Notes: generated by a model not told the origin, from the letters alone. DNA of 64,000 bases from a virus (IMGVR_UViG_3300042509_001112:33847-97846); one strand, 5' to 3'. Positions 4,100-52,824 are shown, numbered from the stretch's first letter. Numbers and translations are program-made.

Positions 4100-4280
4100 T
4101 TAATTGGTTAATAATGTCTTCCTCACTATTTAAGATTTCTCTTACATCATATAATTGTTCTTCTAAATCAGCTTTTTGTTCTAAAAAGTCTTCTTCAGTA
4201 ATACCAATCATTTGATCATAATCAGATTGTAGTGAATCAATTTGATTTTGTAAATCTTTTTCTAATTCAGATGCTGTCAT
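4089..4280 (-). CDS. Small acidic coiled-coil protein
   Basis: 63 aa, almost wholly acidic and helical, with heptad-like spacing of leucine and isoleucine (LEKDLQNQIDSLQSDYDQM, then LEQKADLEEQLYDV). It is probably a short dimeric coiled coil. It overlaps the downstream 94-aa gene by 11 nt. Function unknown. Confidence 0.6.
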   Translation of the reverse strand: MTASELEKDLQNQIDSLQSDYDQMIGITEEDFLEQKADLEEQLYDVREILNSEEDIINQLIEE

Positions 4281-5084: not shown

Positions 5085-5545
5085 TTTGATATAGTACAGC
5101 AAGAGTTCTCTATTGTACTTTCATTCTTACTACCTTAACAGCTTCCTTTGTGCATATCTGCATCAACATCAGAGTTTCAGCTAATTAAGCTAAGGAGTAT
5201 AAGACCGACCTTACACTAACTTGTAATTAAATCTCAAAATATACCTTATAGGTGCTGAATGAGTATTACAATATTGTTAGTATATCAAAGAAACTGGTGT
5301 CCTCAACATCTTGGAAAGTTATTGAGTTTTTTAAAAATCCCTTTGCACTCAGTTGTAATAGAAAGACTGACGTCTTTTGAGTTGTAGTTCAGGGTGTTAA
5401 AGGTCCTGGTGGGCTACACATACTTACCCTTCAATTGGATATTACAACTGTTACCTTACGGTAGTGCATTGAGATGTGAGAAACAATAAGGCTGTTTATC
5501 CACAAACAACAAACGCTTTGTATTTAACACTACGGTTGTTTGTAT
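5085..5545. ncRNA. Large structured non-coding region, candidate ornate RNA
   Basis: There is no plausible gene in about 460 nt, but many exact helices: AGTACA/TGTACT (5093-5098 with 5114-5119) over AGAG/CTCT; CTTA, CCTT and AGCTT (5126-5144) with AAGCT, AAGG and TAAG (5187-5203); ACTAAC+TTGTAAT (5215-5227) with ATTACAA and GTTAGT (5265-5281, 4-nt bulge); CTCAA/TTGAG (5302-5326); CAGTTGTAATA/TATTACAACTG (5350-5360 with 5440-5450) enclosing AAAGAC/GTCTTT and AGGGT/ACCCT; ACAAACAAC/GTTGTTTGT (5502-5510 with 5535-5543). Neighbours are leftward, so minus-strand transcription is likelier. Size and phage setting recall large RNA classes such as ROOL or GOLLD, but no identity is claimed. Confidence 0.6.
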
Positions 5546-33197: not shown

Positions 33198-33908
33198 ATG
33201 GCTACAACAACATCTTTAGATCATATTGTATATTTAGTACTTGACCAAATTAGAGGTAGATCAGTAGTTACTGATACTATATTACCTGAGCAAGTTGAAC
33301 AAATAGTAATTAATTTAAGATCTCAACTTATTAAACAAGATTCTAATAAAGGTTATACAGCTGATCCTTACATTATTCAAGACTTAGGTTGTGTTGAAAT
33401 GGAAGTAGTAGATGCAGCTGAATCTTGTATTATTGAAGCAGGTTGTAATTTATTAAGAAGTGTTAAACCTATACCAAGCACAATAGAACTTCATCATAGT
33501 CAATTATTTACTAGAGTAGGACCTGTTAATAAGGGATTACCTGGTTATGATTATGTGCATTATGAAAGAATACCTTATGTATTAAATAACAAATATACTA
33601 AAAATAGAGTTAAGTATTATATGCAAAATACTAACGGTTATTTGTATCTTATAGTACCTAACAATATATTACAGGTATTAAAGTTTATAAATATACAAGG
33701 TGTATTTGAAGATCCAAGAGATGCTTATAACTTTGAAGATTGTGATGGAAAACCTTGCTATTCTTCAACAGATCCTTTCCCAATTAAAAACTGGATGGTT
33801 AATAGTATAGTAGATATGGCTGTTAAATTGTTCTTAGCTACACAAGCTTCAGTAGCTGAAGATACTACTAATAATAATGAAAATGATTACACAACACAAG
33901 CTAAGTAA
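33198..33908 (+). CDS. Tail ring / adaptor protein, probable
   Basis: 236 aa. The start (SLDHIVYLVLDQIRGRSVVTDTILPEQVEQIVINLRSQLIKQD) and the later RVKYYMQNTNGYLYLIVPNNILQVLKFINIQGVFEDPRDAYNF match the pattern of crAss-like tail ring proteins that lie before the muzzle gene. Such proteins form rings between portal and muzzle. Assigned by position and pattern. It overlaps the next gene by 32 nt in another frame. Confidence 0.68.
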   Translation: MATTTSLDHIVYLVLDQIRGRSVVTDTILPEQVEQIVINLRSQLIKQDSNKGYTADPYIIQDLGCVEMEVVDAAESCIIEAGCNLLRSVKPIPSTIELHHSQLFTRVGPVNKGLPGYDYVHYERIPYVLNNKYTKNRVKYYMQNTNGYLYLIVPNNILQVLKFINIQGVFEDPRDAYNFEDCDGKPCYSSTDPFPIKNWMVNSIVDMAVKLFLATQASVAEDTTNNNENDYTTQAK

Positions 33909-35354: not shown

Positions 35355-38300
35355 ATGGCTCAAGAAAAAGAACAAGAACAAGGTGGTCAAACTAATGGTA
35401 TTGCAATAAATACTTTTACTGGAGGTATTAACCAAGACTTAGCTAAGACTATATATAAACAAGGTAATTATTTAGATGCTCTAAATATTACTTTACTTAC
35501 TGATGGTGGATTAAGTACAGCTGTTGTACAAAATAAGAAGGGAACTAAACTACAAATTCAGTTTCCTACAACTATTCCAGCTGCTACTTATGAATCTAAT
35601 AGAGAATATCCTCAAGTTGTACCTGCTCAAGAAAATATAAAAGTTATTGAAGGTTTAGCAATAACTGATGGTAGTGGAGTACAAAACTTATTCTTTATTA
35701 CAAAGAGTAATGCTGTAGGTAATCCTAATGATAATGGTTATGGTCAAATATGGAAATGTAATTTTTTAGGTACTAGTGATAATATAGCAGGTGCTATTAA
35801 TGGTTTTGAATTAACTGTTAATAATCATATGATGTATAATAGAGATCTTAACTTTAAGTTTGTAGAAAGAATTAAAACTATTGGTAAGTATGAGAATGAA
35901 AACTTTTCTAGAATATACTGGACTGATGGTATTAATCCATTAAGAAGTATTAATACAATAGGTTCTTTACAATCTTTATTAAATATACCTGTTAGAACTT
36001 TAAATATAGTATCTGAATCTAATTTAGATACTCCTGTTATTAGTAGATTAATTAAAGGTAGTTTACCTGAAGGTAAATATCAATTAGCTTATAGATTATT
36101 AAGTAAAAGTGGAGATTTAACTAACTTCAGTACTTGTAGTAATTTAATAGATGTTATTGAAGGTAATGAGTTTAATAGTGAACTTGGATACCCATTAGCT
36201 GATACAATAGAGTATACTACAGATGTTATGGCTGCTACAGATAATAAAGAAGTTATTGACTCTGATAAAGGTATTGAGTTTTATATACCTCGTATTGATA
36301 AAGATTATGAAATGATTCAATACGCTTTAATATATTATAGTCAACCTAATTTACCTGAAATATTTGTATATCCTTATAAAGAAATATCTTTATATAGAAA
36401 TCAATATGAAAGCTTTACTGATTTATTTAGTGATACTTTTCTATTAACTACAGAAGAGTTTAATATAATGTATGCTCCATTTGAAAAAGTAGGTACTATT
36501 GAAGTTAAAGATAATATCTTATTTGCTGCTAATACTACTAACGAAATGTTTAAGGTTAATATAGATTACAGAGCTTATAGATATAATGATAGTGGTGAAT
36601 GTACTACTTATGAATTAGATGGTAATACAAATACTTTTACTACTAACTATCCTAATAATGATTTATTAGATGTTATTAATCCTTATAATGATGAGAGTGG
36701 TAAGATATTTGGTTTAAATAATGTAGGTAATCCTACAACTTGGTATAATAATCATCAATATAAATATAAACAAGATGGTGTTACTTTAGGTGGTCAAGGT
36801 CCTAATATTGGTTATACTTTTGGTACAACTAGTATAGTTGTGGATACTAATCTTACCCAACAACTTAATAGAGCTCCTTTAATTAAAACTGATGTAGATT
36901 ATACTGATACACTTACAAGTGTACCTAATCATATTACAGGTAACAATGGTAGCTTTAGTAGTTTAAAATCTCCTTATAAAGCTAGCTGTCAAGTATCTTG
37001 GCAACGTGGAGAAGTATATAGGTTTGGTATTACTTTTTATAATAAGAAAGGACAAGCTTCTTATGTTAACTGGATAGGTGATATTAAGATGCCTGACTTT
37101 AATGAAACTAATAATCCTGCTTGTTTACTATCAAATTATAATGTTGGTAAATTAACAATGTATTCTACTTATATAGATTTTGATGTTAATGTACCTCAAG
37201 ATTTAGCTAAAGAAATTAGTGGATTTAGAATAGTATATGTTGAAAGACAAGAAAATGATAAGACTAGGTTTGGTACTGCCATTACTGGTGGTATGCAAAC
37301 TTTTGATAGAATGAATATCAATAATAACCAATTTGGTATAGATTATACTATATCAATTATAGCAACTGTTATTTGTTATAAAATAGGTAATTACGTAGAT
37401 GATTTAACTGATTTAGGTGGACAAGATCCTTTTGGTATTAAACAAGATATTAGAGGAAAAGTAATGCGAGCAGCTGCAGCAGCTATTTATAAAAAAATAG
37501 ATAATATGCCTTCAGCAGCTCAACAAAGAATAACTAGTTCTGAAGATTTAGCTGACTTTTTAGATTCTGTTTTAGATGGAGCTACTAATAATGCAGGTGG
37601 ATGGATGACTGCTTTAGCTGGAGGTAATTTACTTAAAATGTTATTTCCTAAAACTATTGAAAAAATTAAAGAATCTATTAAAGAAGATTTAAGAAAATTA
37701 TTAGCTTATAAAGTAGCTGGATTACATCCTAACGTATATTCTTTAGGTCAAGTAGGATTTGCTAATGCTGCAATAGCTAGTTCTTCTTTAGCTCATATAG
37801 GATACACAATATCTCCTAATGTTGACTTTAATAAATATGAATTTAAACAAGGAGATTATTTAAAACCTATTAATACATTTAAACAAGGTAATAAAATTGT
37901 AAATGAATTACATAGAGATTCTACTGTAGGAGTATACAATATATTAGATAGTTCTGCTTACTTAAGAAAATGGTATAAAGGTACTACTTTATCTTGGAAT
38001 CAAGTAGCTGATAGTGATGCTAGAAGAATATATATTAATAATCAAAAAGTACTTATACCTGGTGAATTATTAGGATCTGGTTTTGATAGTGTAATGATTA
38101 GTCAAAATGCTGAAGGCATAGATTTAGATTTTTTAATATCTAATAGTTATATATCTTCAATACCTCAAGCTAATAAAGCGGGTATGTTAATTACTGATAG
38201 TAATCTTAATTTAAATGATGTTATATCTGCTGTTGAAACTGGTATTACAAGTGCTGGTGGAACATATGTTAAAGTTGAAGGCGAAGCTTTTTTAAATAAA

Positions 38301-40217
38301 ATAGTAAGACCTCACCTTGTATTAGGTATAGGAGATAAAAAACATATGATTATTACTAATGCTTTATTTGGTGATAATGGTATACCTGTAGAAAATTGGT
38401 TTGAAAATTATGAAGAAGAATCTTATAAATATGAATTAGATACTTTAAATGATGTTTACAAAGCAAAGCATGCTCTTAGATTTAAAGATCATGGTGGAGA
38501 TTATACAGTAACTTATTGTAGACCTATAAGTAATAATCAATATGGTGGAGTAGGTTATAGTAGTAGAGCTAATAATGAGTATATACCTGCGAGTGAATAT
38601 TATTCTTATACAACTAGATTAGGTAAAACTGTAAATATGAAAGCTGGTTTAGGTGATACTTATGTAGGAGTATATGATGCAGTTAATTACTGTTATTACT
38701 ATAATCAAGTAAGACCAGCTGGTTATCAAGATCCTATTAGAAGTAAGAAAGGAATGTATGAAATATTTCCTTGTGAAGCTAGTTTTAACTTTAGTTTAAG
38801 AGAAGGTAATCACCCAATTATTAGTTTATCTCCAGATGATTTAAAAGAGAATTCTGATTTTAAAACTGAAAGTATTAGTAATCCTGATCAAAGTAAGTTA
38901 TTTAATTTTGTAACAAAAGCCATACCTAAAATTAAAAGAGTAGTTTTTGGAATTTTTACAGCTGGTGGTTCTGAATTTATGTATTATTTAAAAAAACGTA
39001 TGATTAAAAATGGTCCTGATACTGCTAATTTAGTATTAAGAAATGAAAGATTCTTATTATCTGAGTTTAAGTATAATGATGTGTTTAATCAAAAATATAA
39101 CATTCAAAAGTATTTTCCACCTAGTTTATTTTATGATAATGAAGTAGATCAATATACTAATAGAATATGGCATTCTGCTCCTAAAATAGATGGTGAGGTA
39201 ATTGATAGTTGGAGAAACTTTCAATTTGTAGATTACTTAGATGTTGAAGGTACACTAGGTCCTATTATAGAATTAGTTGTTAATAAGAATAAAATATTTT
39301 ATTATCAAACAAATGGTGTAGGTGTTGCTAGTAGTAATGAAAGAGGAGCTGTTCAAGGATCTGAAGGTAATATAATTTTAAGTAATAATAAAATATTATT
39401 AAGATATGATTACATTACTAAGGAAACTGGTACATCACAACAGTATAGTGTTATTAATACTAATAGTGCAATATATCATTATGATAATAATCTTAAAAAG
39501 ATATTTAAACTAGGAGAAGGATTAGAATGTATATCTGATAACTTAGGTTTATTTAGTAAACTACAAAGTGTAAATAATGATATTAATAAAACACTTAATA
39601 CTGTCCATGGTATATATGATACAGAATATCAAACAATATACTTTACATTCTTAGATCCAGTTAATTCTCAAAATAGTTTTACTATTGGATATAATGAAAA
39701 GTTAAATGTATTTGAAAGTTTCTATAGTTTTAAACCTAAGACTTACTTTAGAATGAATACTATGGTATTTGGTAGTATGAGTAATAATCAATGTTATTGG
39801 CATAATAAAGGTGATTATGGTAGTTTTTATGGTACTACTTATCCAAGTAAAATTAAAGTATTAACTAATGATGCACCATTAACTACTAAAGTATGGGATA
39901 ATCAAAAGTTTCAAACACAAGTATATAATACTAATGGAGTATTACTTAATAATGATACATTTGATTTTATTCAACATAAAACTGAAAATCAAGATACAGG
40001 TTTAATTACATTAACTCCACAAAGTAATATAGTTAAGAAAGAAAGAGATTGGAAATTGATTATACCTAGAGATATTAATAATGCTACATTTAGTACTTTA
40101 AGTAAACCTAGATTAAGAGATATGTATTTAGAAACTGAAATAACTTATACTAATGCAAATAATCAAAGATTTATTTTACATCCAATAACAACATTTTATA
40201 GACAATCAATACATTAA
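35355..40217 (+). CDS. Tail stabilisation (muzzle) protein, P22 gp10-like
   Basis: 1620 aa. INTFTGGINQDLAKTIYKQGNYLDALNITLLTDGGLSTAVVQNKKGT at residues about 18-65 is the N-terminal signature of the P22 gp10-like packaged-DNA stabilisation proteins, which in crAss-like phages form the distal tail (muzzle). Most of the chain is beta-rich, probably propeller-like, with one helical, alanine-rich insertion (about 690-830, IRGKVMRAAAAAIYKKIDNMPS) that may be a plug or membrane-active segment. The gene follows the ring genes and precedes the cargo gene by 3 nt. Confidence 0.85.
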   Translation: MAQEKEQEQGGQTNGIAINTFTGGINQDLAKTIYKQGNYLDALNITLLTDGGLSTAVVQNKKGTKLQIQFPTTIPAATYESNREYPQVVPAQENIKVIEGLAITDGSGVQNLFFITKSNAVGNPNDNGYGQIWKCNFLGTSDNIAGAINGFELTVNNHMMYNRDLNFKFVERIKTIGKYENENFSRIYWTDGINPLRSINTIGSLQSLLNIPVRTLNIVSESNLDTPVISRLIKGSLPEGKYQLAYRLLSKSGDLTNFSTCSNLIDVIEGNEFNSELGYPLADTIEYTTDVMAATDNKEVIDSDKGIEFYIPRIDKDYEMIQYALIYYSQPNLPEIFVYPYKEISLYRNQYESFTDLFSDTFLLTTEEFNIMYAPFEKVGTIEVKDNILFAANTTNEMFKVNIDYRAYRYNDSGECTTYELDGNTNTFTTNYPNNDLLDVINPYNDESGKIFGLNNVGNPTTWYNNHQYKYKQDGVTLGGQGPNIGYTFGTTSIVVDTNLTQQLNRAPLIKTDVDYTDTLTSVPNHITGNNGSFSSLKSPYKASCQVSWQRGEVYRFGITFYNKKGQASYVNWIGDIKMPDFNETNNPACLLSNYNVGKLTMYSTYIDFDVNVPQDLAKEISGFRIVYVERQENDKTRFGTAITGGMQTFDRMNINNNQFGIDYTISIIATVICYKIGNYVDDLTDLGGQDPFGIKQDIRGKVMRAAAAAIYKKIDNMPSAAQQRITSSEDLADFLDSVLDGATNNAGGWMTALAGGNLLKMLFPKTIEKIKESIKEDLRKLLAYKVAGLHPNVYSLGQVGFANAAIASSSLAHIGYTISPNVDFNKYEFKQGDYLKPINTFKQGNKIVNELHRDSTVGVYNILDSSAYLRKWYKGTTLSWNQVADSDARRIYINNQKVLIPGELLGSGFDSVMISQNAEGIDLDFLISNSYISSIPQANKAGMLITDSNLNLNDVISAVETGITSAGGTYVKVEGEAFLNKIVRPHLVLGIGDKKHMIITNALFGDNGIPVENWFENYEEESYKYELDTLNDVYKAKHALRFKDHGGDYTVTYCRPISNNQYGGVGYSSRANNEYIPASEYYSYTTRLGKTVNMKAGLGDTYVGVYDAVNYCYYYNQVRPAGYQDPIRSKKGMYEIFPCEASFNFSLREGNHPIISLSPDDLKENSDFKTESISNPDQSKLFNFVTKAIPKIKRVVFGIFTAGGSEFMYYLKKRMIKNGPDTANLVLRNERFLLSEFKYNDVFNQKYNIQKYFPPSLFYDNEVDQYTNRIWHSAPKIDGEVIDSWRNFQFVDYLDVEGTLGPIIELVVNKNKIFYYQTNGVGVASSNERGAVQGSEGNIILSNNKILLRYDYITKETGTSQQYSVINTNSAIYHYDNNLKKIFKLGEGLECISDNLGLFSKLQSVNNDINKTLNTVHGIYDTEYQTIYFTFLDPVNSQNSFTIGYNEKLNVFESFYSFKPKTYFRMNTMVFGSMSNNQCYWHNKGDYGSFYGTTYPSKIKVLTNDAPLTTKVWDNQKFQTQVYNTNGVLLNNDTFDFIQHKTENQDTGLITLTPQSNIVKKERDWKLIIPRDINNATFSTLSKPRLRDMYLETEITYTNANNQRFILHPITTFYRQSIH

Positions 40218-40220
40218 GAT

Positions 40221-43106
40221 ATGCCAGATAAGAAACAAGAAATAATACAAGAACCTATGAATAAAAAACAAACATATACAGCATCTCCCAATCTTAAAAA
40301 GATGGGTAAATCTACAGGTAGAGAATATGTAGATGGACAATGGATAGAAACTAAATCTAAAGGTGGAACAGTTAAAAAATATGCACTTGCAGGAACTATA
40401 CCTCCTATAGATGCACTAAATACAGCAGGAGCAGCTGGTGCCACAGGTGCTGCTGGAAAATTTAAAAATTATTTTAAATCTGATGCTGGTAAATCAGATA
40501 TTAAATCAATAATACAAGGATTACCTAGTTTAACTGATGGAAATCAACAACAAACTTCACAAGATCCTAATGCTCCTGTTAAAAAAAGTACAGGTAAAAC
40601 TATAGGTGGAATTGCTGGTGGAATTGCTGGTCTAGCATTAGCTCCATTTACTGGAGGAATTAGTACCGTAGTAGGTCCTGCATTAGGAAGTATGATTGGT
40701 GGAGGAATAGATAATGTTCAGTACAAAAATAAAACTAAAGATTATAATGATCAACAAAATGCAATGACTTCTAATATAGCTGGTAACTTTAATCCTAATG
40801 CTCAAACTAAGCAATTTAAAAAAGGTGGTGAGTTAATTAAACGTGCAGATGGTTCTTATTCTCAAAGAGGTCTTTGGGATAATATAAGAGCTAATAAAGG
40901 TAGTGGTAAAACTCCTACTAAAGAGATGCTTAAACAAGAAAAAAAGATTAAAGCTAAAATGGCTAAAGGTGGTATAGATACTAGTAACTCTATGAGTGGT
41001 CCTAAGTATGCTAAAGGTGGTTTTGATGCTAATAATCCTGCTATGGGTAATACTACACAATATGCACCTGATGCAGAATTTTTTACTAATAGTGAAGCTC
41101 CTGCAAGTGCTAGTAATTTTGCTGTAGATTATGGAAGTAGAAGAAGTCCTGCTCAAACTCAAACTCAATCAAAACAAAAACCTGCTATTAATGTAACAGA
41201 TCCTAATGATCCTAGATTAAAAGCTTATAATGATAGTTTAAATTTAAATAAAAATTATACCAATCAAATAAATTCATTAAGAGAAGAACTTAAGTCAGAT
41301 AATCAACAACTAAAAACTAAAGGTTCTATACCATTTCAAAGATTTGAATTTAGAAATAATTATATGAATGATCCTATAAAACCTTCTCAAATTATGTATT
41401 TTGATAATGGAATTGAAAATTTTGAAGATTATTATTATTGGGAATTTCCTTATTACAAAGCTCCAGTACAACCGTATAAACTTGTTTCTCCTTCAATTAC
41501 AAATAAACCAACAACACCAAAATCTAATAATTTAGTAAAACCTGCTCCAAGAGAAACTTTAAATAAAATGCCTATATCACCAATTAAAAAATTAGATACT
41601 AATTCAATTCAAGCACAACCTAATTTACAAACTAAAGAAATTCCTACAACACCTTCTTCAAATATTAAAGACCAACGTACTTACACTGCTTCTAAAATGT
41701 TAGGAAAAATGAATAAACCTACTGGATATATTAATGAAGGTATGAATGAAGGAAGACAAGAAATTACTAAATCTAAAGGTGGTGTAGTTAAAAAGTATGT
41801 GAAAGGTGGTATGCTTAAACCTATGGGTAATGATATGTATGAAGTTAAATCATATAAGAAAGGTACTGATAAGGTAGAGTACAGACCTAATGTATTTATT
41901 GATAATAAAGAGATTATACGCAAGAATCCTGATGGATCTACTCAAATACTTAGTGATGATTTAGGATACGCTAAAGTAGCTAAAAACATTGCTAGAGCTA
42001 AAGGTGGTAATATAACTGATAATCAATTTGATCAATTATATATGAATCAAGAAATGTCTAAAGCTAGTAAAGGTAAAGGTAATAAATATGTGGAAGGTGG
42101 TACTGATGGTCCTAAAGATACTAAAAATTTTCAAGATTGGTTAGATATAAATCAACCTACTTGGCTAAAAGGTAAATCTTTAAATAAAGGTGCTGGTTAT
42201 GGTACTTATGGACCTAATACAACTGCTGCTTATAAAAAGTATGGTAATGTTTATGAAGCTAGATTTACTCCTCCTGAAGTTAAAGATGAAGGATTTGTTA
42301 ATTTAGATGGTACTAAAGAACCTATATTATCATCACCTACTGTAAGTAAAGATTTAGAAAATAGTATATTAAAAGGTCCTAGTGATGGTTATTCATGGCA
42401 ACCTTCAAATTTATCAACAAAACCGCCTAAAGATAAAAAATCTCTTGATACTAAAGTTAACCCATTAGGTTATTTATCTAGTCTTGCTGGACCTGCTTAT
42501 AATATTGCTCAAGGTTTAAAAGGTGGTGATCCAGTTGATTTTGAAAGAATGAATACTAAGTATCAATTTGCTGATCCTAGAGGTGCTATGGCTGCAGCTA
42601 GTAGAGGAGTAACATCTGCTTACAATGCTGCTAAAAATGCTGCTAAAACTACAACTACTAGTGCTGGTGAGTATCTTGCTAATATGGGAAATTTAGCTAG
42701 TAAAGAAGGTATGGATAGAGCTAGTGCTTTAACTGCTATTAAAGCTCAATATGATATGGCTAATACACAAGGTTTAAATCAAACTAACTTAGCTAAAGAT
42801 CAATATAATGCTCAAACTCAAATGCAAGAATCTATTGCTAGACAACAAGAACAAGATGCAGCTAGAAATGCTCTTAGTCAAGGTTTAAGTAATATAGGTC
42901 AAAATACTATGGGTTATACTTCTGAAAGAAATAGAGCTAAATCTGATAAATTAATGGCTGGAATGCTTAATGAAAATTATGAAGTAGTATATAATAAAGA
43001 TACTGATAGTTATGAGATACAACCTAAGAAAGGGAAAAAATCAGGATCTAATGTTATAAGTACTTTTGGTGAACCTCCTAAAAAAGAAGAATCTTCTAAT
43101 AAATAA
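40221..43106 (+). CDS. Virion cargo-like protein with KxGG repeats and internal duplication
   Basis: 961 aa. A TYTAS...GK...TKSKGG-VKKY segment occurs twice (about residues 16-58 and 485-533), and KGG-type motifs recur at least eight times (KKGGELIK, AKGGIDT, AKGGFDA, VKGGMLK, AKGGNITD, VEGGTDG). A glycine-zipper helix (IGGIAGGIAGLALAPFTGGIS, about 130-165) could insert in a membrane. The last 200 residues are alanine-rich helices ending before a lysine-rich tail. These features and the place after the muzzle suggest an internal protein ejected with the DNA. Confidence 0.7.
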   Translation: MPDKKQEIIQEPMNKKQTYTASPNLKKMGKSTGREYVDGQWIETKSKGGTVKKYALAGTIPPIDALNTAGAAGATGAAGKFKNYFKSDAGKSDIKSIIQGLPSLTDGNQQQTSQDPNAPVKKSTGKTIGGIAGGIAGLALAPFTGGISTVVGPALGSMIGGGIDNVQYKNKTKDYNDQQNAMTSNIAGNFNPNAQTKQFKKGGELIKRADGSYSQRGLWDNIRANKGSGKTPTKEMLKQEKKIKAKMAKGGIDTSNSMSGPKYAKGGFDANNPAMGNTTQYAPDAEFFTNSEAPASASNFAVDYGSRRSPAQTQTQSKQKPAINVTDPNDPRLKAYNDSLNLNKNYTNQINSLREELKSDNQQLKTKGSIPFQRFEFRNNYMNDPIKPSQIMYFDNGIENFEDYYYWEFPYYKAPVQPYKLVSPSITNKPTTPKSNNLVKPAPRETLNKMPISPIKKLDTNSIQAQPNLQTKEIPTTPSSNIKDQRTYTASKMLGKMNKPTGYINEGMNEGRQEITKSKGGVVKKYVKGGMLKPMGNDMYEVKSYKKGTDKVEYRPNVFIDNKEIIRKNPDGSTQILSDDLGYAKVAKNIARAKGGNITDNQFDQLYMNQEMSKASKGKGNKYVEGGTDGPKDTKNFQDWLDINQPTWLKGKSLNKGAGYGTYGPNTTAAYKKYGNVYEARFTPPEVKDEGFVNLDGTKEPILSSPTVSKDLENSILKGPSDGYSWQPSNLSTKPPKDKKSLDTKVNPLGYLSSLAGPAYNIAQGLKGGDPVDFERMNTKYQFADPRGAMAAASRGVTSAYNAAKNAAKTTTTSAGEYLANMGNLASKEGMDRASALTAIKAQYDMANTQGLNQTNLAKDQYNAQTQMQESIARQQEQDAARNALSQGLSNIGQNTMGYTSERNRAKSDKLMAGMLNENYEVVYNKDTDSYEIQPKKGKKSGSNVISTFGEPPKKEESSNK

Positions 43107-43190: not shown

Positions 43191-45254
43191 ATGAGATTTT
43201 TTCAACCAACACCAACTCAATATGTACCTCAATATACTCCTTTAAATTTAGAGTTAATGAAACAAACTTTAGATGCTAGAGAGATGCAAGATTTAAAAGC
43301 TGAAGATGCATTAGCAGAAGCTGCTAATAGTCTTGTAGTGAAAGGAGGAATGTACACTAAGCCTGAAGAAATAGAAGAAGTAAATAATTATTTACAATCT
43401 AATATAAATAATGTTGCTCAAAAATTGCATGCTGGTGATATTGATGCTAAAGATGCTGTATTAAATATTAATAGATTAAAAACATTCTATAATACACATC
43501 CAAGTGTACAGTTTTTTAAAGAAGATGAAAATTTAACTAATCTTACTAGAACAGCAATGACTCAAGGCAAACTAAACAATGCTGTAAGTCCTGGTGCTAC
43601 ATATTTTGATAATCAACTTAAAATCAATAGACCTATTAGTTGGAAAGAAGGTAAAGAAAGTTTAGCTAATGCTTACAATTTTAAAACTCCTACAAGTATT
43701 GATGCTGAACAAAATTATGGTAAAAGATATGCTGATATAAAACCTAGTTCGCTTATACAAGAATATGCTAATCAAAATGGATTTACATTTCAACGTGATT
43801 CAGCAACTGGATTACCTTTAGTAATAGATAAAAAAACAGGAAGAGTTGATGAGCAAGTTACATGGCAAATGTTATATGATGCTGGATTAACAATGGCTCC
43901 TGATGAATTAAAAAATTCAGCTACTGATTATGTTCAATATCAAAAAGCAAGATATAAAAATTATACACCACAACAATTTGCTAGAGAATTTGCTAATGCA
44001 GGTGCTGCTAAAATATTTACTAAGACAGGTATAACTAGTGAAAACAAATATAATGTTTTAGAATCTTTATATAATGCAGAACAAGCTGCTGCTGCGGCTG
44101 CTGCTATAAATCAAGATTTTGAAGCTCCTACAGCTAATATTATTCCAAGTGATCAAGAATGGGGAATAAGACAAGGTAAATTTATTACCAATCCGTTTGG
44201 TTCTCCAGATAATTTACCTGATAATATGAATATAAATGATTTAGATAATCCTAATAGTACTACAGGATTAATAATAGCAAAAATTGCAACACCTGATGAA
44301 AGACATCAATATATTATAAATAACCCTAAAGCATCTTCAGAAGAAACTACTCCTAATTGGAATTTAGTACAACCATATGATTTACCTGAAACAGAAAAAA
44401 AATATTTTGAAAACTGGTTAAAAAATAATAAAAAACATGGATATATGTATGATAACTACATAGTAAATAATCCTAATAAAGTGGATATAAATCCTAAAAA
44501 ACTTGCTGGAATATATAAAGATTTCTTTAATGATATGAAAGAATATACTCAAGATATTGTTAAAACAGCTTCTACAGCATCACAAGTTAATTATTATTCA
44601 GATGCTTCTATAAATGATGATTTGAAAAAAGGTCAATACGGTGAAGCTCGATATAAACAACAAGCTCAAAGAGTTTGGACAACATATGTAGGTAATAAAT
44701 CTACTGGTACAATATCTGATGTATTAATAAATGCAGCAAATAATAAAAGTAGAATATGGAGTATAACTGATAAAAAGTTTATCGATCCTAATAGTAAAGA
44801 ATGGATAGCAATAAATACAGATCATGGTAAAGTATCAGTACCTTCTTTAGGTAGAACTAATCCTGAAAATTTACTTAATGTGCTTACTGGTGATGAAACA
44901 TTTAAAAATGGTATAACATTTTCTACACCTGATGGTAAACAATATTTAATTGAAGATCGCACATATGGTGTTGGTGATTATAATAAAGCTGAACCATTTG
45001 TTACTGAACTTTATAGAAAAGGTAAAATGGCTTTAGGACAACCTGTAAAAACAAATTGGGATAATGATAATGATATAATATATAAAATTGATAAAGATAA
45101 TCAAGTTATCTTATTAGATAAAACAGGTACTAAAGATATTGGAGTATTTAAAAATACTGCTGATATGAGTTATCAATTAGTGCAAAAAAATAATCCATTT
45201 GTTAAAGAAGCTTTAGTACCAAAAAAAACTAAATCTACTACTGGAAAAAAGTAG
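43191..45254 (+). CDS. Giant virion protein, zero-frame part (687 aa) of a frameshift pair
   Basis: 687 aa ending at TAG 45252-45254. It starts MRFFQPTPTQYVPQYTPLNLELMKQTLDAREMQDLKAEDALAEA, a pattern I associate with crAss-like virion proteins placed after the cargo gene, and is helical and hydrophilic throughout, with an alanine run (EQAAAAAAAINQ, about 300). The C-terminus VPKKTKSTTGKK is a flexible linker, not a domain end, and the stop lies directly on the slippery A-AAA-AAG. I infer that a share of ribosomes shift -1 and make a 1201-aa fusion with the downstream frame; this 687-aa form would be the more abundant product. Confidence 0.78.
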   Translation: MRFFQPTPTQYVPQYTPLNLELMKQTLDAREMQDLKAEDALAEAANSLVVKGGMYTKPEEIEEVNNYLQSNINNVAQKLHAGDIDAKDAVLNINRLKTFYNTHPSVQFFKEDENLTNLTRTAMTQGKLNNAVSPGATYFDNQLKINRPISWKEGKESLANAYNFKTPTSIDAEQNYGKRYADIKPSSLIQEYANQNGFTFQRDSATGLPLVIDKKTGRVDEQVTWQMLYDAGLTMAPDELKNSATDYVQYQKARYKNYTPQQFAREFANAGAAKIFTKTGITSENKYNVLESLYNAEQAAAAAAAINQDFEAPTANIIPSDQEWGIRQGKFITNPFGSPDNLPDNMNINDLDNPNSTTGLIIAKIATPDERHQYIINNPKASSEETTPNWNLVQPYDLPETEKKYFENWLKNNKKHGYMYDNYIVNNPNKVDINPKKLAGIYKDFFNDMKEYTQDIVKTASTASQVNYYSDASINDDLKKGQYGEARYKQQAQRVWTTYVGNKSTGTISDVLINAANNKSRIWSITDKKFIDPNSKEWIAINTDHGKVSVPSLGRTNPENLLNVLTGDETFKNGITFSTPDGKQYLIEDRTYGVGDYNKAEPFVTELYRKGKMALGQPVKTNWDNDNDIIYKIDKDNQVILLDKTGTKDIGVFKNTADMSYQLVQKNNPFVKEALVPKKTKSTTGKK

Positions 45255-45290
45255 AATCTCCAGTAGAGGTTAAAGCTCGACCTGCTGGAG
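45245..45290 (+). promoter_or_regulatory. -1 programmed ribosomal frameshift signal
   Basis: A-AAA-AAG (45245-45251), the dnaX-type slippery heptamer, is in the correct phase and is followed at once by the zero-frame TAG. After a 6-nt spacer comes a stem-loop: CTCCAG (45258-45263) with CTGGAG (45285-45290) and inner AGGT (45267-45270) with ACCT (45280-45283). The -1 frame is closed by TAA at 45230-45232 upstream, so a shift can only happen in 45233-45251, exactly where the heptamer lies. Confidence 0.8.
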
Positions 45291-46795
45291 TTACTAGAGC
45301 TGAAAGTAATAACAATCCTGGAAATTTAAGAGGATGGGATATGCAATTACCTAAAGATGATAAAGGTTTTGATCAATTTCCTACTTTACAAAATGGATGG
45401 AGTGCTTTAAATAGACAAGTTAAAAAAGATGCTTTACCTGAAAGAAAGCATACTGTAGATACTTTTATTGAAAAGTATGCTCCTGCTTCAGATAATAATA
45501 AGCATAAAAACTATGTTAATTATTTTGTAGAAAATGTTAATAACGCAGCTAGAGAATTAGGTAAAGTTATAAAATTTACTGCTGATACACCTTTAAAAAC
45601 TATAGTAGATACTATAGGAGAGAAAGAAGTATCTAAAATTATATCTAAGAAAGAAGATATTAAAACTTATAAAAAGTTAGAGCAAGCTAATTTCTTTGAA
45701 ACTAAACCTGTAGTTAAACCAACAGTACCTGCTAAAAGAGATTTAAGTTTTATACCAACTAAAAAAGTTACTAAAAGTATAAAAGAAACAACTACAGATA
45801 AAGTAGTTGATTATATTAATAAAGCTCCTTGGTCAGAGCCTTCTAAATTAATTACTTATTTTTCAACTGTATATGATACCAAACAAAGAAGTGAAGGTAA
45901 AAATTTAAAAGAAGAAACTAAAGTTAAAACTCCAGTTGTAAATATAACTAATAAAGATAAAGTAAAATTAGGAAGTTCTTATAAAGATAGTAATGGGTTA
46001 GTTTATGGTAAAAGTGTAGTAGATATGTCTAATGGTATATATGTTACTTATCAACCTAGAAATGAAAAATCTAAAAACAGAAAAGATATTAATAACGCTA
46101 TTATGATTTCTGATTATCTATATGATATGGATTTTACAGATAATACAAATCATGAACATGCTCAAAATAGTTTAAATAAATTAAAATCTGGTAAAACAAC
46201 TCAAAAATTTGTTCAAGTGAGAGAACCTTCTAAAACAAAAGGAGAATATATAGTTAAAATTAAAAAAGTATCTGACTTAACAGAAAATGATTTTAAAAAT
46301 AATAATATATATAGACAGTCTTATGCTAAATTAAGTGATCTTGATATTACACCTGATGGTAAAAAAATTAAATTAACTAATTATGCTAAAAAATGGAATG
46401 TTGCTTTATTTGTAAATCAAGGCTTACCGTTTCATGAAGCAGTTGGTAGTGAGCATAATTTAAGATTGCCTGGAGGTAAGGGTAATTATGGTAAATATCA
46501 AAATATATCAGAACTAAAACAATTTGGACCTTATTTAGGAGGAACTGTAACTATAATATCAGATGATGGTAAAATAGTTAAAAAAGTTACTGGTGGTGTA
46601 GGAGATATAGTTGAAGAAGCTCAAAGAATTAAAAAACAAACTGATGGAAAAGAAGTTTATTTTTTACAATCCGATGCTGGAAGTATGAATGTTAAAGCTT
46701 TTGCTAAAAATAATAAACTTACAAAAGATCAATTAGGAATACTTAGAAATTTAGAACCACAAGCTGGAGCTGCTGAGATTTTATTAAATAAATAA
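45251..46795 (+). CDS. Frameshift extension: lysozyme-like / structural protein domain (514 aa)
   Basis: In the -1 frame the reading is open from 45233 to 46795. The first ATG is at 45341, but the sequence before it already codes protein: VESPVEVKARPAGVTRAE, then SNNNPGNLRGWD, continuing after the ATG as FDQFPTLQNGWSALNRQV and TVDTFIEKYAPASDNNKHKNYVNYF. The ESNNNPGNLR...F-F...G..AL...YAP pattern is that of phage virion muralytic (lysozyme-like) proteins. No ATG, GTG or TTG exists between 45233 and 45341, so the full domain is reached only by frameshifting. Toward the C-terminus there is an L,D-transpeptidase- or protease-like unknown region (VAL-FVNQGLPFHEAVGSEHNLRLPGGKGNYGKYQ). Confidence 0.72.
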   Translation, partial: VESPVEVKARPAGVTRAESNNNPGNLRGWDMQLPKDDKGFDQFPTLQNGWSALNRQVKKDALPERKHTVDTFIEKYAPASDNNKHKNYVNYFVENVNNAARELGKVIKFTADTPLKTIVDTIGEKEVSKIISKKEDIKTYKKLEQANFFETKPVVKPTVPAKRDLSFIPTKKVTKSIKETTTDKVVDYINKAPWSEPSKLITYFSTVYDTKQRSEGKNLKEETKVKTPVVNITNKDKVKLGSSYKDSNGLVYGKSVVDMSNGIYVTYQPRNEKSKNRKDINNAIMISDYLYDMDFTDNTNHEHAQNSLNKLKSGKTTQKFVQVREPSKTKGEYIVKIKKVSDLTENDFKNNNIYRQSYAKLSDLDITPDGKKIKLTNYAKKWNVALFVNQGLPFHEAVGSEHNLRLPGGKGNYGKYQNISELKQFGPYLGGTVTIISDDGKIVKKVTGGVGDIVEEAQRIKKQTDGKEVYFLQSDAGSMNVKAFAKNNKLTKDQLGILRNLEPQAGAAEILLNK

Positions 46796-46848: not shown

Positions 46849-49800
46849 ATGCCTGAAAATAATAATACATATTTATCTCAATTTAAACCTCAAGATTTTA
46901 GTGGTTTATTAGCAGTTGCACCAAAAGGTGCTACTACTATGTATGGATTTAAAGAATCTCAATACGCAAAGGATTTTAATGTACCTATGTATGGTGAGAT
47001 GTCTGATAAAGTAGCTGCATTACAAGAAGCTAGAGCTCAAGAACAACCTTTTTATGATAAACTTGCTAACAGTACACTTAAATTAGCTGCTGTTGCTGGT
47101 ACTACATTTGTAGATATATATGCTGGTACTGCTACAGGTTTAATTAACATGGGATTAAAAAGTACTGAATTATTAATTGATAATAAAGAAGATAATTGGT
47201 GGGATGCAACTAAATCTGTTGTTAATGCTTTTGTTAATAATCCTACATCTGTAGCTCTTAATAGTTTTAATGATTGGCTTGATAGTGATGTTTTAGTTAA
47301 TTATAGAACTAAAAAAGAAATGGATAATGAGTGGTGGCAAAATGCTTTAAGTGCTGAAGGTGCTGCTAACTTTTGGGGAGAAAATATATTAAAGAATGCT
47401 GGTTTTATGGTAGGTGCTATGAGTGCTAGTAAATTAGTTGGAGCTGGATTATCTAGATTAGTTAAATTAGAAGCAGCAAGAACTGAATTTAAAACCATAC
47501 AAAATGCTGCTACAAAATTAGGATTAGGTGAAGATATAGCTGCTAAAAATATGGATGAAATTATGAATATTGCTAGAAATAATCCAGCAATGTATGGAGC
47601 AGCATCTGAATCTGTTATAAAAGATTTAGGAAATGCAGCTCAAAAAGTTAGAGCTAAAACTTTTCAAGTACAAGCAGGAGCAGCAACATTAGGTGCTTTT
47701 GGTGAAGCTAGAATGGAAGCTATTGGTAATGGTAATCAATATAGAGAATCTTTATTAATGCCTTTAAATCAAAAATATAAACAAGGTTTAATTACTGAAG
47801 ATGAATATAATGAAGAGTTAAAAAAGATTGATAAACAAGTAGAAGCATATCAAAATGTTTCTTGGTTATCAAATGCTTTATTATTAACTGGAAGTAATTA
47901 TTTAGGATGGAGAGATAGCTTTTTAAAACCTTATGATTATAATGCAAAAAATATAATAGGTAAAAGAGAAGGTAGTATTGCTAAAGGATATAATTATGTA
48001 GCCCCACCAATATTTACAACAGCACTTAAAAGAAAAGCTGTTGATGCTTTCAGAGAATCTCAAGAAGAACAAGCACAGTTTTTTATAGATAAAGCTACAG
48101 GTAGTTATATTAATGCATTATATAATGGTAATGATTATGCACAAAGTTTAGGTAAAGCATTATCTGAAGGTTTTTCTGAAACTTATGGTTCTGCTGAAGG
48201 TTGGGAGAATGCATTTGCTGGAGCTTTATTTGGTGCAGTAGGTGTACCAGGTGTTGGTGGTGGTTTTAGGAGTGAATATAAAAATCTTAAAGCTAAAACT
48301 GCTGAAGAAGCTGCTGCTATAGAAAATCTTAATAAGTTTATTCAAGAAGGTAATTTAACTAATAATAAAGATTCTATATTAGCTAAAGCTTTTTATAGTA
48401 ATATTGCTTTATCAGGTGATCAAAATAATGCTGTTCTTGAAAATGATAGAAAAGCATATGAAGATTTAAAACATCAAAAGTTTTTTAATTTAGCTAATGC
48501 TTTTATTGATGCAGGTAAGTATGAAGATTTTTTAGATTTAATAGAATCTGAAGCAGATTTAGATGTTGAAGAAATTAAAAAGAAATATAGTTATAAAAAT
48601 TCTGATGGTGTAGAAGTAAGTTATTTTGAAAATAAAGATGCTAGTGAAATTAAATCAACTATTGCTAGTACAATTAATAAAGTTAAAACAGAGTATCAAA
48701 ACCTTAGAGATTTAAAAGATAGTTTATCAACTCTATATCAAAATACTTTTGTTAAAATAAAAGATGAGAATGGTAAAGATGTTGAAATATTAGCTAGAGA
48801 TATGATTACCCAAATGTTTTATATGGGTAAAAAAAGAGATGAAAGGATAACAGATTTAAGAGCTAAAATATCTGATATATTAACTAGAAACTATAAAGTA
48901 AGTAGTGATAAAAATGCTGATCAAGTAAGTAATGTAATGAACTTACAAAAACTTGTTGATGATAGTTTTACAAAAGATTTTGAAGGAGGTAAAGCTAATA
49001 GAAATGCTATTATTGATGAGTTTAATAAATTTACAAATACTCTTGATGATAAACTCAATGGTGTTGATATTAAACAAACTAGACAATTATTTCAAGATTA
49101 TCTAGATTTAATTACTGAAAGAGCAATTGCTAATATTAATTTAGCTCAACTTAGTAAGAATGATTTTTCTGATTTAGTAACTGCAATTAATAAAAGAATT
49201 GAAGAAGCTAATGCAGCTAAAAATCAAAAAGAAATGAATGAGTTTAATGCTGAATTAGATGATGAAGCTAAACTTAATTTTGTTAAAAATAAAGCTAAAG
49301 AAGCTGGTTATGTAGATAAAGATGGTAATCCTTATTTTGGTAAATTCTTTACCATGACTGATAGTAAAGGTACTAGAACATTTGAAATAGATCCTAGTAA
49401 TGCTGTTGAGATTAGAAAAGATTTAATTGCTGAAAGAGATGGTATTATAGCTGAGATGGATCCTAAGAATGTAGATGGTATAAAACAAGTTACACTTGAT
49501 TATGAAGAATTAATTGCACAAGCAATTGCTGCTAATACAGCAGGAGGATTTATTAAAAATCTTGAAGATAATGCTTATATTGTAGGTAAAGATGGTAAAG
49601 AAATTTCTTTTGATGATAAATTTGCTATTGAATATTATAATAAAATAAAATTTTTATCTAAAGAAGAAGCTAAAGCATTAAAAATTAAATTAAATATTAT
49701 AAGAACTAATCAAGCTAAAATTGATGCTTTGCAAAAATTAGCTAATGAATTAGATCGTGATATTGTAAAAGAAGTTGATAGTATTAAAAATGAATTACTT

Positions 49801-52800
49801 AATAGAAGTATATTAGAAAAAGAATTAGAACAAGCTAAATTATTAGCTGAGCAAGTAAAAGATAATGTTGTTGATAAAGAATTTATTGATAATTTAATTA
49901 AATCTCTTACTGAACAATTAGAAGCTTGTAATAAAGCAATTGAAAGAGTTGAAAAGTCTAAACAAGCTATTTATAGACAACAAGAAGAAATAACTCAATT
50001 AGTTAATTTAATTAAAGAATCTTTAGAAAAAGAGAACTTTTCTATTAGGCAATTTTTAGATACTTTAGAAAGTGGATTTATAGATAATATAGATAGAGTA
50101 ATGGGTTTAAGTCTTGTTGAAGATTTAGAAACATTAGCTAATATGACTGATTATAATGAAGCTTTAAGTAATCTAGAAACATTAAAAAGCAGTGTTCAAG
50201 ATAGGATTAACGTCTTAACTAAGAAAATAGATTTTCTTGAAGCTTTAAAAACTAAATCAATTAGTTATAAAAATTTAATTGTCGGTACCAAACAAGCTAA
50301 TATGCCTAATTGGTTTACTGAAAAATGGAAAGTGTTTTACCCTGTATCTGGTAATAATATTGAGAATTTACTTAAAGATCCTAAAAAATTTGCTAGATTT
50401 CAATATGGTATAAATAAGTATGCTGAACGTAATAACATAACACCTAATCAAGCTTATGATAGGTTTATGCAAGATTACTATAAAGTGCAACAAGAACTTG
50501 AAATTCAAGCTAATTATGCTGAACAACAAAGTATTGATAATGAAATATTAATTATTAAACAAGATCTTGATCTTTTAAATAGACAATTAAGAGCAATTGA
50601 TAATGTTACTGAATTTAAGCGTCAAGAATCTTTTGTAGATAATTTAAAAGCTACTATAGATAAAATATCAATAGATTATGCTATTGCTTTAAATCGTGCA
50701 TTAAGAGCAATTAAAATACCTCTTAGTCAAGAGAGTGATCCTAAGTTTAGTCAAGATAATCCTCCTACTCAACAAGCATCTGCTAATTTACATAAAGGTG
50801 CTTTAAGTAGTAATTTATATTATACAACTAATAAAGTTGTTGAATATTTACCAGGATCTAAAACATTTCAAACTTTATATGATGATGAAGGTAAACCTAT
50901 ACTTAATTCTAATGATGACTCTAGAAGATGGAATTCATTCTTAGAAATGAATCCTGATATTAAAGATCCATATAAGAGAGCTAAATATACTTTACAAGCA
51001 TTTCATTATAAAACAGATGATCAGATGCCTGATGATCTAAAGAAAGCTGTTAAAAATGCATTAAAAGGTAATGAAACAGATAATACTATAGTAGTTGCTA
51101 TGGTATCTACTGAAAATGGTTCATTTATTAAAGCTGATGTTAATGGTAAACTTGATGGAGATGGTGGATATGTATTTACATTTTTACCTGAATCTGATAA
51201 TTTATTTGCTGGTACTTTAAAGAAAGATGGTTCTATTGATAAAATCAATATGACAGGTTTATTAGACTTTTATAAAAAACATAGTGGTCATAAAGAAGTA
51301 ATACCTTATAGTGCTATCACAAATACCAAACATGATCCTTTATTTAAATTAAGTTGGAAAAAACCTGAAAATAGAGTACCTTTATTTGAAATAAGAGAAG
51401 AAATTGTTAATTTTGCTATTAATAAACATAAAGAATCTATTAGTAAAATTATTAATGATTTACAAGAAGGTGAAGTATATTTACCTATTGAATCAGTTAC
51501 TAATGGTATATTATTAACTACTAATAATAAAGATGCTGAAGGTAATAAAATTAATAATTATGTACCTGTAAGAAATGTTCTTAGATATAAAAGAGGTATT
51601 GATGTTTCAACAGAAAAAGGTTTAGATAAAGTAACTGTAACAGTAGTTACTAAATCTATACAAACATTAAATGGTAGTAATGTTATAGTTAAAAATGCTA
51701 AGATAGGTTCAGTTATTGTTTATAATAAAGAAACAAAAGAATATTTTTATGCTACACAAAGGTTTGTAAATAGCGATGAGATTGATTTAATATTACATAT
51801 TATTCAAAAGTATGGTGGTAATAAAGATGAAGCTTTACAAGATTTATTTGTTAATATAAATAATTCTAAAACAAATGAATATTATTACGATAAAAAACAA
51901 GGTAGTAAATTACCTGTTTTTATGTCTTCTAATAGATTATCTTTAATGAATAATATTATTTATTGGGGAGTACCTAAAAATGCTACTAAAAGTGGTAAAG
52001 GTAAATTAAATAAGAATAATATTTATATTCAAGGTGGTAAAGTACATTTTCCTAATATTGATAATAATAATATATTTACTTCTGTAAATATTGCTGATTT
52101 AGGAAGAGATACTGCAGAACGTAGAAGACTTATTGCTTTTTTAGCTACTAAAAGAATTAATGTACCAACATCAATGTTACAAACAGCTGCTGGTAGAGGA
52201 GGAATTTATTACAAACCTTATTTAAATAAAGCAACAAATGAAATATCTTGGGAACAAATAGAAGGAGGATATCTTTCTTATTTGTTTAATGGAGGTAAAG
52301 CAAGTGATCCAATATTAACTACAAATGCTATATCAGAACCTTTACAAACCGCTGATTCAAAAACTAAGTCTGAAGATATATTATTTGCTTCAAAAAATGT
52401 TATATTAAAAACAGATGAAAATGGTTTAATAAAAACTAAAAATACTTTTGTAGCAGATCAACCTTTAGCAAAAACTGAGAAAAAAACATATAAAGGTAAA
52501 AGAACTGCTAGTAAAGATAAAACTACAAAAACTAGTAATCAAGCAGCTGAAACAACTACTGAAGAAGCTAAAGAACAACAAGAAAATTGTAAGACAGGTG
52601 GTGGTAAAAAAAGCAATAGTAAAGAAAGTACTGGTAAAAAAAGAACTGCTGGTGAAATGACTGAAGAAGAAATGGAAGCTTATGCAAAGGATATGGCACA
52701 AGGAATGGCACATTTTGGTTTTAAATCAAAAAAGACAACTACTAGTACTGATATAAATGATGATATATTAGCACCTGCACCTGAATCTACTAAATTAAAT

Positions 52801-52824
52801 AAAAAACCTAGAACAAAAAATTAA
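46849..52824 (+). CDS. Giant virion protein (1991 aa), probably injected
   Basis: 1991 aa. The N-terminal 450 residues carry several weakly hydrophobic, glycine/alanine-rich helices (LAAVAGTTFVDIYAGTATGLINMG, AGFMVGAMSASKLVGAG, AGALFGAVGVPGVGGGF) like ejection proteins that cross or line the cell envelope. Residues about 480-1280 are long charged helices and coiled coils; about 1330-1850 is a mixed alpha/beta domain; the tail is disordered and lysine-rich. It lies directly before the RNA polymerase gene (8 nt). In relatives the proteins at this place are packaged with the polymerase; whether this one contributes to RNA synthesis is unknown. Confidence 0.7.
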   Translation: MPENNNTYLSQFKPQDFSGLLAVAPKGATTMYGFKESQYAKDFNVPMYGEMSDKVAALQEARAQEQPFYDKLANSTLKLAAVAGTTFVDIYAGTATGLINMGLKSTELLIDNKEDNWWDATKSVVNAFVNNPTSVALNSFNDWLDSDVLVNYRTKKEMDNEWWQNALSAEGAANFWGENILKNAGFMVGAMSASKLVGAGLSRLVKLEAARTEFKTIQNAATKLGLGEDIAAKNMDEIMNIARNNPAMYGAASESVIKDLGNAAQKVRAKTFQVQAGAATLGAFGEARMEAIGNGNQYRESLLMPLNQKYKQGLITEDEYNEELKKIDKQVEAYQNVSWLSNALLLTGSNYLGWRDSFLKPYDYNAKNIIGKREGSIAKGYNYVAPPIFTTALKRKAVDAFRESQEEQAQFFIDKATGSYINALYNGNDYAQSLGKALSEGFSETYGSAEGWENAFAGALFGAVGVPGVGGGFRSEYKNLKAKTAEEAAAIENLNKFIQEGNLTNNKDSILAKAFYSNIALSGDQNNAVLENDRKAYEDLKHQKFFNLANAFIDAGKYEDFLDLIESEADLDVEEIKKKYSYKNSDGVEVSYFENKDASEIKSTIASTINKVKTEYQNLRDLKDSLSTLYQNTFVKIKDENGKDVEILARDMITQMFYMGKKRDERITDLRAKISDILTRNYKVSSDKNADQVSNVMNLQKLVDDSFTKDFEGGKANRNAIIDEFNKFTNTLDDKLNGVDIKQTRQLFQDYLDLITERAIANINLAQLSKNDFSDLVTAINKRIEEANAAKNQKEMNEFNAELDDEAKLNFVKNKAKEAGYVDKDGNPYFGKFFTMTDSKGTRTFEIDPSNAVEIRKDLIAERDGIIAEMDPKNVDGIKQVTLDYEELIAQAIAANTAGGFIKNLEDNAYIVGKDGKEISFDDKFAIEYYNKIKFLSKEEAKALKIKLNIIRTNQAKIDALQKLANELDRDIVKEVDSIKNELLNRSILEKELEQAKLLAEQVKDNVVDKEFIDNLIKSLTEQLEACNKAIERVEKSKQAIYRQQEEITQLVNLIKESLEKENFSIRQFLDTLESGFIDNIDRVMGLSLVEDLETLANMTDYNEALSNLETLKSSVQDRINVLTKKIDFLEALKTKSISYKNLIVGTKQANMPNWFTEKWKVFYPVSGNNIENLLKDPKKFARFQYGINKYAERNNITPNQAYDRFMQDYYKVQQELEIQANYAEQQSIDNEILIIKQDLDLLNRQLRAIDNVTEFKRQESFVDNLKATIDKISIDYAIALNRALRAIKIPLSQESDPKFSQDNPPTQQASANLHKGALSSNLYYTTNKVVEYLPGSKTFQTLYDDEGKPILNSNDDSRRWNSFLEMNPDIKDPYKRAKYTLQAFHYKTDDQMPDDLKKAVKNALKGNETDNTIVVAMVSTENGSFIKADVNGKLDGDGGYVFTFLPESDNLFAGTLKKDGSIDKINMTGLLDFYKKHSGHKEVIPYSAITNTKHDPLFKLSWKKPENRVPLFEIREEIVNFAINKHKESISKIINDLQEGEVYLPIESVTNGILLTTNNKDAEGNKINNYVPVRNVLRYKRGIDVSTEKGLDKVTVTVVTKSIQTLNGSNVIVKNAKIGSVIVYNKETKEYFYATQRFVNSDEIDLILHIIQKYGGNKDEALQDLFVNINNSKTNEYYYDKKQGSKLPVFMSSNRLSLMNNIIYWGVPKNATKSGKGKLNKNNIYIQGGKVHFPNIDNNNIFTSVNIADLGRDTAERRRLIAFLATKRINVPTSMLQTAAGRGGIYYKPYLNKATNEISWEQIEGGYLSYLFNGGKASDPILTTNAISEPLQTADSKTKSEDILFASKNVILKTDENGLIKTKNTFVADQPLAKTEKKTYKGKRTASKDKTTKTSNQAAETTTEEAKEQQENCKTGGGKKSNSKESTGKKRTAGEMTEEEMEAYAKDMAQGMAHFGFKSKKTTTSTDINDDILAPAPESTKLNKKPRTKN

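Follow-up and report, generated by a model that had tools for sequence, protein, structure and literature searches.

The window analysed here is a stretch of 64,000 nucleotides (nt) from an environmental (metagenomic) IMG/VR virus record of 97,846 base pairs (bp), IMGVR_UViG_3300042509_001112, of which it covers positions 33847 to 97846. Within it, a gene located at the position of cargo protein C2 (gp46) of phage crAss001 very probably ends in a programmed -1 ribosomal frameshift signal (we put the probability near 0.9). A minority form of 1201 amino acids (aa) that bears a cell-wall enzyme would be made beside the 687-aa product of the zero frame. The anatomy of the junction, its conservation, the selection acting on the -1 frame, and the recurrence of the arrangement with a different heptamer and a different enzyme are all evident in the sequences compared. 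These include other contigs that are relatives of the window (L001, L004, L005, L006, L031, L033, L036 and L039). Coordinates refer to the window unless a contig is named, and all window features given below lie on the plus strand.

The zero-frame gene (43191..45254) closes with the codons GGA AAA AAG TAG. The slippery heptamer A AAA AAG (45245..45251) therefore lies in the phase of the zero frame, with the stop codon TAG (45252..45254) directly 3' of it. A 6-nt spacer, TAGAAT (45252..45257), separates the heptamer from a 3' stem-loop (45258..45290). The conserved stem is 9 bp long and is formed by the strands CTCCAGTAG (45258-45266) and CTGCTGGAG (45282-45290), wherein the outer nucleotides CTCCAG (45258-45263) pair with CTGGAG (45285-45290). 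With a ribosome on AAA AAG, the stem starts at the edge of the messenger RNA (mRNA) entry channel, a geometry that fits stimulation of a shift. A preliminary description of this region, made from the sequence alone, had reported the heptamer in correct phase, the immediate TAG and the 6-nt spacer, and each was found in place on re-reading. Its stem-loop survives in part: the CTCCAG/CTGGAG pairing holds within the longer conserved stem, whereas the inner AGGT/ACCT pairing that it also proposed is not conserved in L004 and L006.

An alternative hairpin (45232-45271), in which ATCTACTACTGG 5' of the heptamer pairs with CCAGTAGAGGT 3' of it, encloses the heptamer and competes with the 3' stem. By eye, this hairpin looks kept in L004 and weaker in L006. 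It was set aside, since it would be melted by a ribosome occupying the heptamer.

In the -1 frame, a TAA (45230-45232) is followed by 520 open codons and a stop at 46793-46795. This open reading frame (ORF; 45233..46795) would contribute 514 aa after the shift, with the trans-frame product read from 45251. The first ATG, GTG or TTG in the frame is the ATG at 45341, and the first 36 codons contain none of the three. The preliminary description had given the frame these same limits, the same absence of start codons before 45341, and products of 687 and 1201 aa (687+514), all of which proved correct. It had also claimed that the short overlap of the two frames holds exactly the heptamer, and A AAA AAG is indeed the only in-phase canonical heptamer in the frame overlap of the window, L004 and L006. 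Such a coincidence is rarely expected. In-phase A AAA AAG occurs 5 times among the 16,025 codon positions of the window, which corresponds to an expected count of about 0.002 per 6-codon overlap. At the other four sites a -1 stop is reached within 3-5 codons, compared with 516 open codons at the split gene. We rejected a model in which TAG is decoded as an amino acid, because two further zero-frame stops, a TAG and then a TAA, follow within ~75 nt; that reading is also ruled out by the conserved protein being in the -1 frame.

The extension begins with a predicted muralytic domain of the lysozyme fold (45302..45703) that is similar to the Enc34 endolysin (PHA02564-type). We built a profile from this domain and five phage homologues that are more distant; it matches the catalytic domain of the Enc34 endolysin (7q47; expectation value E=2e-5) and the opening 120 residues of Gp29, a phage protein of 1295 aa (9vvp; E=1.6e-9). 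Matches to PHROGs 873 and 2276 were also found. The Enc34 domain is muralytic, has the lysozyme fold and uses Glu131 as its catalytic residue (PMC8943055). The invariant Glu of our alignment (residue 135 from 45251; ~45653-45655) aligns with Glu131, which suggests that the window domain keeps the putative catalytic residue. The distant homologues begin M-xxx-AEFNNNPGN, and thus a start at ATG 45341 would truncate the conserved first element of the domain. The preliminary description had likewise placed the beginning of a lysozyme-like domain ahead of this ATG, and both the profile matches and the position of the NNNPGN element agree with it. A structure model of the domain has a modest predicted local distance difference test (pLDDT) score of 64, its Foldseek match to 7q47 is weak (E = 0.04), and the model of the whole -1 product (pLDDT 35) is too poor for use. 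Because the models and the fold match are weak, the domain call rests on the sequence profile.

A C-terminal module (45720..46792) lies behind the lytic domain, and it is 84% identical in L001 and replaced in L004 and L006. This part of the extension is therefore mosaic: the window (45720-46792) and L001 (6001-7071) share one module behind different enzymes, and a second module, common to L004 and L006, follows an enzyme that is the same as in the window.

Selection also points to translation across the junction. Synonymous divergence (dS) between the window, L004 and L006 is ~0.2-0.4. For the coding stretch that precedes the first possible start (45251..45340), the 90 nt from the heptamer to the first ATG, pairwise ratios of nonsynonymous to synonymous divergence (dN/dS) in the -1 frame are 0.33, 0.24 and 0.10. 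When the 450-nt module is read as a whole in either of the other frames, dN/dS is near or above 1. Because purifying selection is seen there in the -1 frame only, we read the stretch before the ATG as being translated in that frame within a functional protein, which a start at 45341 leaves unexplained.

The same arrangement is found in L004 and L006, which are contigs from other metagenomes than the window. They were retrieved by using as query the conserved C-terminal part of the 961-aa protein at the C1 position. Both contigs carry the identical string GGAAAAAAGTAGAA at the same -1 split, including the heptamer, the immediate TAG (invariant in all three sequences), the 6-nt spacer and the 9-bp stem. 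Across the three sequences, 27 of 27 cells of the stem are paired, and two pairs show a one-sided change that preserves pairing. Identity of the zero-frame protein to that of the window is 63% for L004, 22% for L006, 25% for L005 and 17% for L001. Past the junction, the lytic domain of L006 is 82% identical to that of the window, versus 22% for the upstream protein. Thus, the heptamer appears to have been kept, or to have moved along with the enzyme, despite strong divergence of the background.

Two more distant cases would reach a different enzyme through a different heptamer. In L001, another domain with an H-x6-D ... H-x-H metallopeptidase motif lies between the junction and the C-terminal module. 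The join is once more to the -1 frame, and the overlap of the frames contains the in-phase canonical heptamer G GGA AAG (5503-5509), after which come a 5-nt spacer and then a stem of 7 bp. L039 is a remote contig whose upstream protein is homologous to that of the window (hhalign probability 95%, E=2.1e-8). It carries the L001-type peptidase in the -1 frame, with G GGA AAG at 4137-4143 and a stem ~7 nt further on. The frame overlap of L039 spans 36 codons and also contains CCCGGGA. Within this long overlap the -1 frame has an earlier GTG (4074), and therefore the shift is not strictly the sole route into the peptidase in this contig. We take the G GGA AAG of L001 and L039 to be the heptamer of phage lambda G/T (GGGAAAG).

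Judged by its motif, the enzyme of L001 and L039 is probably a LAS-type (LAS/M15) peptidase, an assignment to which a weak PHROG endolysin match in L039 (E = 0.00095) lends support. No Pfam match was found for the peptidase of either contig, and WD-40 matches for L001 were discarded as an artefact of a 20-residue repeat. In both contigs the zero frame ends with AGA AAG TAG (5525-5533 in L001 and 4159-4167 in L039), ~20 nt past G GGA AAG, and the A_AAG beside the stop could be a second, weaker slip site.

Altogether, all 5 extended genes of C2 type that were found show a -1 split with a strong heptamer, and no in-line fusion of a C2-type gene and an enzyme was found among the relatives compared. 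The preliminary description had raised two outcomes that would speak against a frameshift, a single continuous frame in relatives and a loss of heptamer and stem where both frames persist. Alignment of the relatives revealed neither: L004 and L006 have the same split, and in L001 and L039 the heptamer and stem are replaced by G GGA AAG and another stem. The number of independent origins is nearer two than five, with the window, L004 and L006 forming one cassette family and L001 and L039 probably a second.

In L005, L031, L033 and L036, the C2-position gene is present with no extension, and neither the Enc34-type domain nor the L001-type peptidase turned up elsewhere in these records. Because four relatives carry the gene in this form, the zero-frame product appears to be complete by itself. 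A frameshift common to all crassviruses was considered and rejected for cr1_1, cr113_1, phi14:2 and crAss001, wherein the genes after the muzzle gene are tightly packed and leave no orphan frame. The annotated phage collection gave no match when searched with the split gene at DNA and protein level; a scan of genome contigs with the lytic domain revealed no relative, and a viral scan with the zero-frame protein returned nothing.

The window phage is assigned to the crAss-like phages (Crassvirales) by the presence of both the crassvirus muzzle and major capsid protein genes. Its major capsid protein is 32.6% identical over the full length to that of crassvirus cr85_1. The 1620-aa muzzle protein (35355..40217; Pfam crAss_MUZ E=1e-145, crAss_MUZ_C E=3.7e-16) anchors the gene order. 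It is followed by the 961-aa protein at the position of cargo protein C1 (gp45) (40221..43106), by the split gene, and by a 1991-aa gene with its own ATG (46849..52824), which matches the RNA-polymerase-associated cargo gp47 by position only. The genes downstream of the split gene code for 1991 aa and 2498 aa. In crAss001, the order is muzzle gp44, cargo C1 gp45, cargo C2 gp46 and RNA-polymerase-associated gp47 (PMC10172136). Because the window has a matching order, the split gene, which is the second gene past the muzzle gene as is C2 in crAss001, is placed in the C2 position. The crAss001 protein resembles its counterpart in following the muzzle and C1 proteins and preceding the RNA-polymerase-associated cargo genes, but it is ~534 aa long, is encoded without extension or frameshift, and has no detectable sequence similarity to the window protein.

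We propose that most ribosomes would terminate at the TAG and release the 687-aa cargo protein. A minority of ribosomes, stalled by the 3' stem-loop with lysine transfer RNAs (tRNAs) on AAA AAG, would re-pair at -1 on AAA AAA and read on to 46795. This would yield the 1201-aa form, with its C-terminal lysozyme-fold hydrolase and the further module. A few copies of this form would enter the virion alongside the main 687-aa form. At infection the long form might be ejected and open the peptidoglycan for the channel, as has been proposed for the transglycosylase domain of T7 gp16.

Several points weigh against this model. The folding z scores are modest (window -1.9, L004 -1.4, L006 -2.3, L001 -1.9 and L039 -3.0); for the window, 10 of 200 shuffles fold equally well, and the stem alone does only moderately better than the shuffles. 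Among the three comparable sequences there are no compensatory base changes in the 9-bp stem, and no Shine-Dalgarno-like stimulator was seen upstream of the heptamer. The zero-frame product is presumed to be a C2-type cargo or virion protein on the basis of gene order, not sequence, and a comparison of crAss001 gp46 with the window protein, one sequence against a shallow profile, gave an hhalign probability of 0.1%. Finally, we infer the shift itself, its minority rate, the presence of both forms in the virion and the role in ejection.

The shift might also be real and serve another purpose, with the enzyme acting in lysis at the end of infection and not in entry from the virion. The domain family does include true endolysins such as Enc34 (PMC8943055), but in the window the domain is fused to a cargo-position gene between the muzzle and RNA-polymerase-like genes. 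In addition, its best solved match forms the beginning of a very large protein, Gp29, which is the layout of virion entry enzymes. We therefore consider a lysis role unlikely.

A much less probable arrangement is that the -1 frame constitutes a separate gene. Gene callers would start such a gene at the ATG present at 45341, and a non-standard start is also conceivable, because the ATT at 45233 belongs to the rare permitted start codons. However, ATG 45341 lies inside the lytic domain and past its conserved NNNPGN element, and the nucleotides that precede it evolve under purifying selection in the -1 frame. The nearest ATG, GTG or TTG of the -1 frame lies 648 nt past the zero-frame stop in L004 and 471 nt past it in L006, which is beyond the whole lytic domain, and therefore an ordinary start could not reach this domain. 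The ATT fares no better, since directly behind the -1 stop L004 has Ala and L006 has Thr, and not the Ile of ATT. A separate gene would also leave the heptamer, the TAG and the stem unexplained in every extended case.

Slightly harder still to sustain is slippage of RNA polymerase on the run of six A nucleotides, through which mRNAs with one A added (or two lost) would join the frames. A run of six is short for transcriptional slippage to be efficient in bacteria, the G GGA AAG of L001 and L039 has only three A, and neither the exact phase nor the immediate TAG nor the 3' stem would be explained. Although single-base homopolymer indels are common artefacts, a sequencing or assembly error is very unlikely because L004 and L006, from other metagenomes, show the same split with the same bases at dS ~0.2-0.4, and this, a former in-line gene decayed to a pseudogene included, can be dismissed given that purifying selection continues downstream and no in-line homologue was found.

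We lean slightly towards a broader extension of the frameshift model, in which the crassvirus C2 gene would end in a modular socket. Hydrolases that are unrelated to one another (an Enc34-type glycosidase or a LAS-type peptidase) would be attached there always via a -1 shift and never in-line, because infection would need a mixed set of ejected cargo proteins with few enzyme copies. The ratio would then be the selected trait, and A AAA AAG and G GGA AAG would be its interchangeable setters. Among phage structural genes, tail chaperones and capsid extensions are known to involve recoding; in this case it would determine how much of a cell-wall-cutting enzyme is present on a protein carried in the particle. 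Crassviruses are the most abundant human gut viruses and are widely studied. Because gene callers split the gene and begin its second half inside the enzyme, an entry enzyme of this kind would be hidden in annotations. Since the shift persists while enzymes are exchanged, one could test whether infection depends on the proportion of plain and enzyme-bearing copies.

Parts of this system resemble known cases of recoding. In Escherichia coli dnaX (tau/gamma), the heptamer is followed by a stem-loop, as in the window. The dnaX shift gives a shorter product and has an upstream Shine-Dalgarno stimulator, whereas the shift in the window would give a longer product and lacks any visible element of that type. 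As the preliminary description had noted, dnaX uses the same heptamer, A AAA AAG (PMC5009743). In phage lambda G/GT, too, a -1 shift takes place shortly before the upstream frame ends, and L001 and L039 share its heptamer. The principle of this type of tail-assembly frameshift is conserved despite low sequence similarity (PMC5009743). However, gpG and gpGT are assembly chaperones that are absent from the mature virion, and no enzyme is added there.

A virion protein in a short and a longer frameshifted form is found in T7 and T3 gene 10 (10A/10B), in Lactobacillus phage A2 and in Listeria phage capsids (PMC5009743). In these phages the extension is a domain of the capsid surface, immunoglobulin (Ig)-like in T3 and A2, whereas that of the window is a predicted cell-wall hydrolase on a cargo-position protein. 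Unlike in these phages, the enzyme module is exchanged between relatives in the window phage group. A cell-wall hydrolase on a virion-ejected protein, as proposed for the window phage, is also known from T7 gp16 and related ejection proteins, and a peptidoglycan-hydrolase domain can move between such proteins (PMC8954989). Every copy of these ejection proteins has its enzyme in-line, whereas in the window phage only the frameshifted fraction would carry one. In the open-licence literature we found no paper that links crAss-like phages to programmed frameshifting, and no recoding-added cell-wall hydrolase on an internal-cargo-position protein that is kept through enzyme exchange. Thus, frameshifted virion extensions and in-line entry enzymes are already known, and what would be new is their combination, which was not found in that literature.

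In other phages, the Enc34-type domain is located at the very start of proteins of 430-640 aa whose genes adjoin other large genes. Examples are the genes that start at 8010 in L012, 5662 in L013, 3659 in L014 and 7995 in L015, and NCBIfam and Pfam gave no name for the tested proteins of these four contigs. The C1-gene region upstream of the split gene is very variable between relatives in length and gene number, and in L027 (14298-14894) and L008 (6257-6853) it contains a small ORF whose sequence resembles an HNH-type homing endonuclease.

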